Below, in pieces: positions 4,044 to 41,045 of a stretch of DNA of 44,284 nt. The stretch is from a virus: IMG/VR virus record IMGVR_UViG_3300029268_000003, positions 1 to 44,284 of that record; one strand, written 5' to 3'. The translations under genes and the position numbers were made by a program. Below the pieces are notes generated by a model that was given only the letters and a program-made list of their open reading frames with translations, did not search any database and was not told where the DNA came from. The stretch's first letter is position 1, and each line of letters starts with the position of its first letter.

Positions 4044-4973
4044 TTGAAAATAACGACAGAAGAATTGCACGAACGGCAGAAATGGACACTTGAACAAAAG
4101 ATTGACCATAGCTTAGGAACATTAGAACAGTTCTACAATTATACAGATGGAAAATGTGTAGTAATGTTTTCAGGCGGAAAAGACAGTACGGTTTTATTAC
4201 ATTTAGCAAGAAGAATGTACCCGAACATTAAAGCAGTTTTTGTAAACACAACGAATGAGTTTTCGGAAATATTAAAGTTTGTGAGGCAAACAGATAATGT
4301 TGATGAAATAAGACCCAAAATGACATTTTCTCAAACAGTTGAAAAATATGGATTTCCTTTAATATCAAAAAAAGTTGCAAAGGCAATACAATACATTAAA
4401 TACCCATCACCAAAAAATGATAAAGTTCGCAACTTAGTTTTGACTGGATATAATTCTAAAGGGCAAAAATGCGAAAGTTATAAACTTGCTAAAAAATGGT
4501 ATTTTTTGAAAGATGAAGTTTTTGAAATTACTCATAAATGTTGCGAAATATTGAAACATAAACCATTTGCCGAATACCAAAAACAAAATAATGTTTATCC
4601 CATTACTGGAATTATGGCAGACAATAGCCAACAAAGGAAAGGAAACTATTTGCAATATGGGTGTAATATTTTGAATAGTAAAAAGGCTGTAAGCAGACCT
4701 TTGAGCATTTGGAATGATGATGATGTTTGGAATTACATTAAGAGATATAATGTTCCTTATTGCGATGTTTACGACAAAGGGGAAAATAATACTGGATGTG
4801 CTTATTGTGGATTTGGCTGCCATTTGGAAAAAGAAAGCAGATTTGAACGGTTAAAAGAACGAGAACCGAAACGATACGGGCAAATGATAAAATTAACTAA
4901 TAATGGAATTACTTACGAAACTGCAATCCAAACGGTTTTGAAAAAACCTAATGAGCGAGGGCAAAAAAAATAA
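4044..4973 (+). CDS. Cassette 4: PAPS-reductase-like PP-loop ATPase
   Basis: A 309-aa protein of the phosphoadenosine-phosphosulfate reductase/PP-loop superfamily, which adenylates or reduces sulfur substrates. The PP-loop VVMFSGGKDSTVLL (SGGKDS at 43-48) is intact. The middle contains YPITGIMADNSQQRKGN and RPLSIWNDDDVWNYIKRY, the family's second nucleotide-site region. A cysteine cluster TGCAYCGFGC (C252, C255, C259) suggests a metal or Fe-S site. Phage and defence-associated homologues (DndC-like) share this plan; whether this one acts in DNA modification, sulfur metabolism or counter-defence is not decided by the sequence. The likely start is TTG at 4044, preceded by AGGGAGGG; no in-frame ATG lies nearby. 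Confidence 0.85.
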   Translation: MKITTEELHERQKWTLEQKIDHSLGTLEQFYNYTDGKCVVMFSGGKDSTVLLHLARRMYPNIKAVFVNTTNEFSEILKFVRQTDNVDEIRPKMTFSQTVEKYGFPLISKKVAKAIQYIKYPSPKNDKVRNLVLTGYNSKGQKCESYKLAKKWYFLKDEVFEITHKCCEILKHKPFAEYQKQNNVYPITGIMADNSQQRKGNYLQYGCNILNSKKAVSRPLSIWNDDDVWNYIKRYNVPYCDVYDKGENNTGCAYCGFGCHLEKESRFERLKEREPKRYGQMIKLTNNGITYETAIQTVLKKPNERGQKK

Positions 4974-38294: not shown

Positions 38295-39305
38295 ATGTAT
38301 AACATTCACACGCATCCCGGATTAAGAGATGAAGACGTTTGTAATGGACTATTGCCAGGAGGTATAATAAAAGCTATAAGGTCAGATGTAGGCTTTTTTA
38401 TGTTGGAAAAATTTCCTTTTGGAAGCGACTCGTTCAAGCGTATGATTGTCATGGCTAAAATGTGCAGAAATAACGACGCACAAGGTATGTTTAATGTACT
38501 CAAGGCAGAGTATCCAACAGATAAGACTATTTTTGTCGCTCATGCTGTAGACATGGAGAATATGGGTGGAGGAAATGCAAAAAGACCCTATTGGGAGCAA
38601 TTAGTAGAATTAAATGATTTAAAGAATAATAATCCGGGTCAAGTAATTCCGTTTATTCATATAGATACAAGAAGGGAAAATTATTATGAGTTGTTCAAAT
38701 GGGCTATGGATAATGACTGGGGAGGAGTTAAATTATATCCACCAATGGGTAAGTTTCCGTTTGACGAGGAGTTTGATAAAGTTTTCGATGATTGTGAGAG
38801 ATTAAACAAGCCAGTATTAGCTCATTGCACTGCCGGAAATCCTATTTGTTGGAAAGGAAGTAGAAGAGCATTAAAATTATTATTAGAACAATGTAAAGTT
38901 CCTGTTGATTGGAAGAAATCAAATAAAGACCTGTGTGCTTATTTTACACATCCTGAAAATTATAAATGGGTATTTGCAAAACATCCAAAATTAAAAGTAT
39001 GCCTTGCCCATTTTGGAAGAGAAAATGAGTGGGATAAAATAATACTAGGAATGTTAGAACAATATCAGGGACTTTATATAGACATATCATATTCCTTGTA
39101 TGATGAAAAACGTTGGCCTAATTTACTTATACTTTTAAGAACTAATCCAACATTTAGAACTCGTTGTTTGTTTGGTTCTGATTGGTATTTGGATTTAGCA
39201 GAAGGTCAAGAAAAACAATTTTCTAAAAATTTAAGAGCTACTTTAGGTGAAGAACTATGGGAGCAAATCACAGTAATTAATCCGAAACATTATTTATATT
39301 CATAA
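38295..39305 (+). CDS. Amidohydrolase-2 family metal-dependent hydrolase
   Basis: 336 aa TIM-barrel hydrolase. H5-T-H7 in NIHTHPG, K146 in WGGVKLYPPMGK, H177 in VLAHCTAGNP, H239 in CLAHFGREN and D296 in LFGSDWYLD line up with the metal site of amidohydrolase-2 proteins (HxH ... H ... H ... D). It hydrolyses an amide- or lactone-type substrate or decarboxylates; the substrate is unknown. No phage function is established for the family. It is the last gene before the late terminator, 30 nt after the lysis genes. Confidence 0.8.
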   Translation: MYNIHTHPGLRDEDVCNGLLPGGIIKAIRSDVGFFMLEKFPFGSDSFKRMIVMAKMCRNNDAQGMFNVLKAEYPTDKTIFVAHAVDMENMGGGNAKRPYWEQLVELNDLKNNNPGQVIPFIHIDTRRENYYELFKWAMDNDWGGVKLYPPMGKFPFDEEFDKVFDDCERLNKPVLAHCTAGNPICWKGSRRALKLLLEQCKVPVDWKKSNKDLCAYFTHPENYKWVFAKHPKLKVCLAHFGRENEWDKIILGMLEQYQGLYIDISYSLYDEKRWPNLLILLRTNPTFRTRCLFGSDWYLDLAEGQEKQFSKNLRATLGEELWEQITVINPKHYLYS

Positions 39306-40050: not shown

Positions 40051-40092
40051 TATAAAAAATTTGTTATTAAAAAATAATTATTACATTTGTAA

Positions 40093-40215
40093 TGTACTAA
40101 AGTGGTTCAAAATGTTTAGATTATTCATTATTAATAATATACCCTCACGGGTACGTAAAGCCGGAAAAAAGGTATTGAACCACCTTAGTACACGGCTTTC
40201 GTGCTTTGTGAGGGT
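40093..40215. ncRNA. Large H-type pseudoknot (two interleaved long inverted repeats)
   Basis: Stem 1: TGTACTAAAGTGGTTCAA (40093-40110) pairs with TTGAACCACCTTAGTACA (40175-40192), 17 of 18 bases. Stem 2: 40141-40163 (ACCCTCAC, GTACG, AAAGCCG) pairs with 40193-40215 (CGGCTTT, CGTGC, GTGAGGGT), about 20 pairs with a one-base bulge and a small internal loop. Strand order is 1-2-1'-2', so each stem has one strand in the other's loop, and 1' abuts 2', allowing coaxial stacking. It ends 11 nt before the ATG at 40227 and hides a GAGGG. Likely a structured leader controlling that gene, or an origin/recombination element. One odd pair is a wobble on + and one on -, so the transcribed strand is not decided. 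Confidence 0.7.
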
Positions 40216-40226
40216 TACTTTTTAAT

Positions 40227-41045
40227 ATGCAAAGTAGAATTAATTTATTCAAACAATTGAGAGCATATTATAGCTTCGTATTTAACGAAAACAAGAATAT
40301 TACTCCATCACATACAAGCCTTTATATGTTTCTATTAAATCAAAACAATCGTGCAAATTGGGTTGAATGGTTTAAATGCCCAGCCGATACTGCTATGTAT
40401 GGAGCATTAATAAATTCAAATAAAACATATTACAAAATATTAAATGAATTGGTTGATTTTGGATTAATAGAATTACAAAAAGGAATAAATAATTATAAGG
40501 CACCTAAAATAAAAATAGTTATTTTAAATTACGAAAATGATATGGAAAAACCTGAAATTCAAATACCAGAATTAGAAAGTAGTAGTGTATTAAATACACG
40601 GCTACTTACACCTCTACTTACACAGCTACATACACTTCTACCTACACTCATAGATAAACATAATACTAATTTACAATTAACTTTAAAACTAACTAAAAAG
40701 AAGCGTGAAGATAAATCTTCTCTTTACACAAAAATAATTGACATTTATTCATTATGGTTTTTTAATAAATTTAAAACAAAAATTCAATTTGACGGTTCGG
40801 ACGGAAAGGCTGTAAAAAAAATAATTTCATATTTGGAATCAAACGAGGCAGGTGACGAAAATGTTATTAAAAATTTTACAGTCGTTTTAAATAATTATGA
40901 CCAATGGGATAAGTTTTATAAAAAACAAACACGAATAAGGCAAATAGAATCTAATTTATCGAATATAATAACATCATTTAAAAATGGAAACGAAAAATTC
41001 TCAGAAGAATCAATTAATGCAGCATACGAAAGATTTGGAAAATAA
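40227..41045 (+). CDS. Putative replication initiator (winged-helix, DnaD-like plan)
   Basis: 272 aa. N-terminal winged-helix-like domain with NITPSHTSLYMFLLNQNNRA, WVEWFKCPADTAMYGALINS and KTYYKILNELVDFGLIELQK, a segment typical of replication initiators of Bacteroidota phages and plasmids. A linker rich in Thr/Leu (LLTPLLTQLHTLLPTLIDKH) leads to a C-terminal helical domain (IISYLESNEAGDENVIKNFT; NYDQWDKFYKKQTRIRQIES) with the 'YxxWxxFYxK'-like element seen in DnaD-type proteins. It probably loads the host replicative helicase at the phage origin. Translation may be governed by the pseudoknot upstream. Confidence 0.65.
   Translation: MQSRINLFKQLRAYYSFVFNENKNITPSHTSLYMFLLNQNNRANWVEWFKCPADTAMYGALINSNKTYYKILNELVDFGLIELQKGINNYKAPKIKIVILNYENDMEKPEIQIPELESSSVLNTRLLTPLLTQLHTLLPTLIDKHNTNLQLTLKLTKKKREDKSSLYTKIIDIYSLWFFNKFKTKIQFDGSDGKAVKKIISYLESNEAGDENVIKNFTVVLNNYDQWDKFYKKQTRIRQIESNLSNIITSFKNGNEKFSEESINAAYERFGK

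Follow-up and report, generated by a model that had tools for sequence, protein, structure and literature searches.

The DNA analysed here, referred to below as the window (44,284 nt, the whole of IMG/VR virus record IMGVR_UViG_3300029268_000003), carries at positions 40093-40215 an element that is probably a structured 5′ leader, acting as an attenuator of a replication-initiator operon and gated by a loop-loop pseudoknot. Judged by architecture and position, it is the long-S1 extreme of an RNA family that occurs in viruses of Bacteroidota and has apparently not been described before. Two inverted repeats, S1 and S2, are interleaved in the order 1-2-1′-2′, with 1′ and 2′ contiguous, at exactly the positions given in an earlier sequence-only reading, and two helices in this order form an H-type pseudoknot. 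The following features were located:

40060-40063, + strand: TTTG, predicted -33 promoter element of Bacteroidota type, separated by 18 nt from the -7 element
40082-40089, + strand: TACATTTG, predicted -7 promoter element, by match to the Bacteroidota consensus
40093-40110, + strand: TGTACTAAAGTGGTTCAA, 5′ arm of S1, pairing with 40175-40192 at 17 of 18 positions
40097-40119, + strand: CTAAA(GTGGTTCAAAATG)TTTAG, weak candidate for hairpin A, by comparison with relatives
40141-40163, + strand: ACCCTCACGGGTACGTAAAGCCG, 5′ arm of S2, pairing with 40193-40215
40169-40186, + strand: AAGGT(ATTGAACC)ACCTT, candidate for hairpin B inside S2, by sequence and a fold of -3.1 kcal/mol
40175-40192, + strand: TTGAACCACCTTAGTACA, 3′ arm of S1, by sequence
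40193-40215, + strand: CGGCTTTCGTGCTTTGTGAGGGT, 3′ arm of S2, by sequence
40216-40223, + strand: TACTTTTT, interrupted U-tract after S2, terminator-like and weaker than in most relatives
40227-41045, + strand: putative replication initiator or helicase loader of 272 aa, by tblastn and a weak profile match

S2 of the window comprises about 21 pairs, including G-U pairs and one bulge, and ends 11 nt before the initiator ATG at 40227. The duplex energies were -22.0 kcal/mol for S1 and -34.3 kcal/mol for S2. When the 44 kb window was Markov-shuffled 60 times, no copy contained a compact interleaved pair of equal strength, which confirms the earlier observation; in the real window the + strand held exactly one such pair, the - strand none. 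GGTTCAA (40104-40110) in the 5′ arm of S1 is the counterpart of the contact made by loop A in the family, and the loop of candidate hairpin B carries the complementary TTGAACC. The arms of candidate hairpin A are complementary, yet they were left unpaired by RNAfold, and this hairpin is not stable alone. The sequence after S2′ reads TTACTTTTT, with T5 at 40219-40223, where relatives mostly show T6-T9 after S2; a scan of the window for terminator-like structures gave no call at this U-tract on the + strand. A 37-aa ORF running from 40112 across the knot was considered as a leader peptide and rejected, as none was evident in Gundel, Danklef or other members.

The Bacteroidota promoter consensus is TTTG/TANNTTTG, and transcripts of F. 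johnsoniae start 4-5 nt after the -7 element (PMC6847099). The transcript of the window element is therefore predicted to start at about 40094, at the foot of S1. In relatives, hairpin A starts mostly 4-6 nt past the -7 element, and TTG was found at a distance of 16-22 nt in 29 of 73 distinct relatives. The interval from S2 to the initiator ATG is too short to hold a further promoter, and the initiator would therefore need either read-through or transcription from upstream. The protein encoded from 40227 showed similarity to the replication proteins of Gundel_1 (E=4e-8) and Danklef_1 (E=2e-7) in tblastn, and a weak match to phrog_270 (E=0.037).

Since its portal protein is nearest to those of Flavobacterium phages, the window phage is, by sequence, of Bacteroidota type; it also has tail sheath, baseplate and RecT genes. 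Searches of IMG/VR with the P0001 and terminase proteins gave no close relatives of the window, a RecT search yielded two loci in neither of which the element was detected, and nucleotide BLAST of the element returned AT-rich chance matches only. Two further genes of the window were noted. An amidohydrolase-like protein of 336 aa (38295-39302; PF04909, E=9e-12), an unusual phage cargo, is encoded after the lysis gene and ahead of the replication leader, and a PP-loop protein resembling PAPS reductase or QueC (4044-4970; PF01507, E=6e-26) is encoded in the early region. In another viral contig, of 44 kb, long simple repeats encode Arg-Pro, Leu-Gly or Ser-Arg dipeptide runs (L011:130-2200).

The Rep proteins of Gundel_1 (a Tenacibaculum phage) and Danklef_1 (a Polaribacter phage) are weakly similar to the product of the window gene. 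Their upstream regions are unrelated in sequence and show the same order of promoter, S1, S2, S1′, S2′, T-run and initiator. The RNA also precedes the Rep genes of P12002L, elemoF and phi46:3, and a Danklef-type RNA lies directly before Rep in Freya_1, so that Tenacibaculum, Polaribacter, Cellulophaga and Flavobacterium all have isolated phages with the design, which also occurs in more than 120 viral contigs. In whole-genome descriptor scans of these phages, the Rep-linked element was the top promoter-linked match. A pattern derived from two members, CTCTCACAAT-N-GTGAGAG, retrieved 60 viral stretches with about 41 clear members, and a family scan after a second search with window-like Rep proteins gave 132 elements, 73 of them distinct, in 131 loci.

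The common layout consists of the promoter, hairpin A, a stem S2 enclosing hairpin B, a U-tract and the start codon. Hairpin A sits at the predicted 5′ end and is followed by an A/U-rich linker, often ending in TTATT. According to the alignment of members, loop A contains 7-8 nt complementary to loop B, and S1 is this loop-loop contact. S2 of the family looks like the stem of an intrinsic terminator: stem and T-tract lie between promoter and rep gene, as in attenuators of the pT181 type. The window shows the promoter, the interleaved S1 and S2, a T-rich tract after S2 and an ORF start within about 50 nt, and its S1 is the longest seen, the loop-loop contact being widened to 17/18 bp. Other long-S1 leaders were found in L088, L171 and L120, and S1 runs of 13-14 nt in L238, L245, L246 and L253. 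The window was missed by the scanner and by the covariance models R1 and R2 because its S2 is longer and bulged; both models are too loop- and length-specific for divergent members or for the window, the assignment of which to the family is based on common architecture and position rather than on a model score. The pseudoknot of the sequence-only reading stands, as a long-stem member of a family and not as a singleton.

Several observations were made on the neighbourhood of the RNA in single phages. A small ORF lies between RNA and Rep in Danklef_1 (L003:2140-2508, GIY-YIG-like by eye) and in phi46:3 (L017:2222-2671, annotated as HNH), and no endonuclease-like ORF is present at this place in the close relatives Freya_1 (L013), L029 and L033; homing may favour the site just 3′ of the RNA. 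The RNAs of Danklef_1 (L003) and Freya_1 (L013) are 97.7% identical and the C-terminal parts of their Rep proteins 85% similar, while the N-terminal domains differ, i.e. a domain was swapped and the RNA left unchanged. Gundel_1 carries a second RNA copy before an antirepressor gene (L020:33905-33996), with loops unlike those of its Rep-linked copy.

All nested helices covaried in 18 sequences found by the fixed pattern. In 21 sequences with different loops, 23 of 25 pairs (8 of the 25 being kissing pairs) were changed on both sides and 99.4% of cells were paired, counts that lean towards structure because rows of both alignments had been shortened in variable linkers to hold the column register and the 21-sequence set came from a scanner requiring loop complementarity. 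The covariation score was 0.874, compared with 0.221 after shuffling (0/500) and at most 0.14 in slid registers. Judged from these alignments, all four helices of the family covary. A test that was not conditioned on S1 used DUF6291 leaders for which the sole selection rule was a promoter followed by a T-run at a distance of 70-135 nt. By this rule 53 of 76 viral DUF6291 loci qualified, with 30 distinct leaders, and 28 of these reached an A-zone/B-zone complementarity score of 15, as against 18% of zones mixed between loci; at a score of 17 the figures were 77% and 5% of mixed pairs. Compensatory changes were thus found and both repeats were kept together across dozens of phages, which supports the RNA pseudoknot that had been read from the window, as well as its placing as the leader of a replication initiator. 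When only Watson-Crick pairs were used to fix the register, the S2 pairs of 50 distinct elements included 46 G-T and 1 A-C combinations. Since G-U is tolerated on one strand only, the sense-strand RNA, rather than a DNA cruciform, is by this count what selection acts on. Hypervariable kissing loops serving as a specificity code were also considered and found no support, as variation in the kissing pairs does not exceed that in the S2 stem.

A scanner run over 2.5 Mb, both strands, gave 93 promoter-linked elements, nearly always one to a locus, many of the loci overlapping or having been chosen near Rep. An ORF of at least 90 aa came next in 79 elements, and the distance from the end of S2 to its start was 5-32 nt in 78 of them and 47 nt in one; in several of the 14 remaining elements a smaller ORF followed. 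Shuffled controls gave 7 matches at a score of 57 or more per 0.98 Mb, and a promoter was present at 2 of all 15 matches. Window-like Rep loci, which represent a second initiator type, had the element upstream in 50 of 78 cases, usually about 190-250 nt away, leaving room for one small ORF. No element was detected in about a third of the loci sampled, such prevalence figures being no census, as similarity of Rep or a single loop sequence had served to select the loci. The downstream genes belong to unrelated families, comprising DUF6291, DnaD-like helicase loaders, DUF1376, and O-like and primosomal proteins; in some contigs a helicase, a ParB-like protein, a methylase or an antirepressor follows the element. 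The gap before the Rep gene held no element in RAP44, bajarodcaudo virus 4 or AP45, nor was one evident at Rep of BS-TP3. In bacterial assemblies (L163-L195), only 3 of 32 DUF6291 loci had a leader by promoter and T-run, against 53 of 76 viral loci, a fourth (L177) being recognised by eye, and the exact family pattern had no match in the bacterial genome collection. The element may accordingly be typical of non-integrated phages, but the contrast is no more than a hint, as the Rep genes of viral and bacterial samples also differ.

In the attenuator that we consider probable on comparative evidence, transcription would begin at the foot of hairpin A, which would fold first. Hairpin B would then emerge inside the growing S2, and its loop could pair with loop A to form S1 before S2′ has been transcribed. 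Closure of S2 over hairpin B beside the U-tract would terminate transcription 5-32 nt before the initiator start codon, and failure of S2 to close would allow read-through into the initiator. The loop-loop contact would gate this choice and set the dose and timing of the initiator. We infer in vivo termination at S2, modulation of S2 by S1 and initiator control as the purpose. The same architecture before Rep of Gundel_1, Danklef_1/Freya_1, P12002L, elemoF and phi46:3 argues for such an attenuator, as do the covariation, the G-T excess in S2, the narrow spacing to the start codon and the replication-related proteins encoded downstream. Against it stand the loci in which no element was detected, the copies that precede non-initiators (antirepressor, helicase, methylase) and, in the window itself, the interrupted U-tract, the hairpin A left unpaired by RNAfold and the failure of model R2 to find the element.

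The main alternative, though rather unlikely, is that the element yields a small RNA of its own, stable and about 90-130 nt long, which would work in trans via loop A or B like P4 CI or P1/P7 C4, with the initiator expressed mainly from upstream transcripts. Its role could lie in superinfection immunity, in copy-number feedback or against a host or defence target. A compact RNA would indeed be delimited by the promoter of the element, by the hairpin with which the transcript is predicted to begin and by the terminator with which it would end. The replication genes of P4 are controlled by its CI RNA through premature termination from the leader (PMC4825925), and one Gundel_1 copy precedes an antirepressor gene. 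The constant spacing of 5-32 nt to the start codon, however, suggests action in cis. Other targets of the loops are unsupported, since the kissing 8-mers had no extra copies in their loci (5 vs 6.7 expected) and the 9-mer of the window was not in excess.

That the leader controls translation, with S2 and the loop-loop contact exposing or occluding the start region of the initiator, is improbable. The distance of S2′ from the ATG is 5-32 nt, and initiation in Flavobacterium is tuned by structure close to the start codon (PMC6847099), but the start codon is outside the structure and nearly all members have a conserved T6-T8 tract after S2′, which is a mark of intrinsic terminators. Nor is the GAGGG in S2′, to which the sequence-only reading had drawn attention as buried, likely to be a Shine-Dalgarno site, because Bacteroidota mRNAs lack such sites (PMC6847099). 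There is still less chance that the element is the RNA part of a replication origin, i.e. a primer or R-loop-forming transcript for the adjacent initiator: its association with several unrelated initiator families would fit a role in replication, but copies also precede an antirepressor and other genes, one Gundel_1 copy lies 17 kb from the Rep-linked copy, and the 3′ end is of the terminator type. A DNA-level cruciform, a protein-binding site or a chance structure is very improbable, for although inverted repeats near initiators are common in replication origins, the excess of G-T over A-C in S2 (which disfavours the cruciform proposed earlier), the polarity of promoter and T-run, covariation in the true register only and the lack of equivalents in shuffled genomes all speak against it.

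A reading that goes beyond the attenuator itself, and is rather unlikely, is that this undescribed family, mostly with one copy per phage, gates replication in a large proportion of Bacteroidota phages and that the terminated product of the self-kissing leader also recognises nascent leaders in trans, which would amount to an RNA-only control of copy number or superinfection independent of the initiator family. Little is known of the regulation of replication in Bacteroidota phages. A structured and strongly covarying RNA placed before several unrelated initiator families, in about two thirds of the sampled viral loci, would be a general control point of replication. Its function is directly testable, as phages in culture carry members (Freya, Danklef, Gundel, P12002L, phi46:3 and elemo).

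Rfam 15, at gathering and permissive thresholds, gave no match at the element in the window, in L002 and L003 or in the sources of 18 member loci. No description of such an RNA was found in a limited search of open-licence full-text literature. The nearest systems in action would be the P4 CI RNA, by which replication genes are controlled through premature termination from the leader (PMC4825925), the C4 RNA of P1/P7 and the attenuators of pT181/pIP501. Like CI, the family is a replication-operon leader RNA with complementary segments. CI, however, arises by processing of a longer primary transcript, and its pairing partners seqA and seqC are separate sites, whereas the complementary segments of the family are two hairpin loops in one leader with its own terminator-like stem; the hosts here are Bacteroidota, and the two are set apart by description and Rfam only. 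C4 controls the antirepressor ant in P1/P7. It is likewise a structured phage RNA, and one family copy precedes an antirepressor gene, but the family gave no Rfam match to C4 (RF01695) at the gathering score, and C4 is listed from Proteobacteria and phages (PMC2864571).

With pT181 (PMC3753616) and pIP501 the family shares leader hairpins, a kissing contact and, before the replication initiator, an intrinsic terminator, which in the family is a terminator-like stem with a T-tract. There, attenuation of the rep genes is driven by an antisense RNA from the opposite strand, whereas the partner loop of the family is in the same RNA. Antisense promoters (TAHHTTTG, reverse strand) were not enriched over the leaders (8/73, background 32/271), and antisense attenuation after the scheme of pT181, an attenuator of a plasmid rep gene, was therefore rejected for the family. 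The leaders of T4 gene 32 and S15 resemble the family in having a pseudoknot in the 5′ leader upstream of the regulated gene. Those pseudoknots are binding sites of the protein encoded downstream and prevent ribosomes from loading, whereas the structure of the family ends in a terminator-like stem and the proteins encoded downstream belong to several unrelated families, so that binding by the 40227 protein, as envisaged in the sequence-only reading, is unsupported. To our knowledge, none of P4 CI, C4 and pT181/pIP501 shares a cis loop-loop pair around its own terminator stem. With the proposed leader, the known controls of intrinsic terminators would be joined by a loop-loop gate acting in cis.
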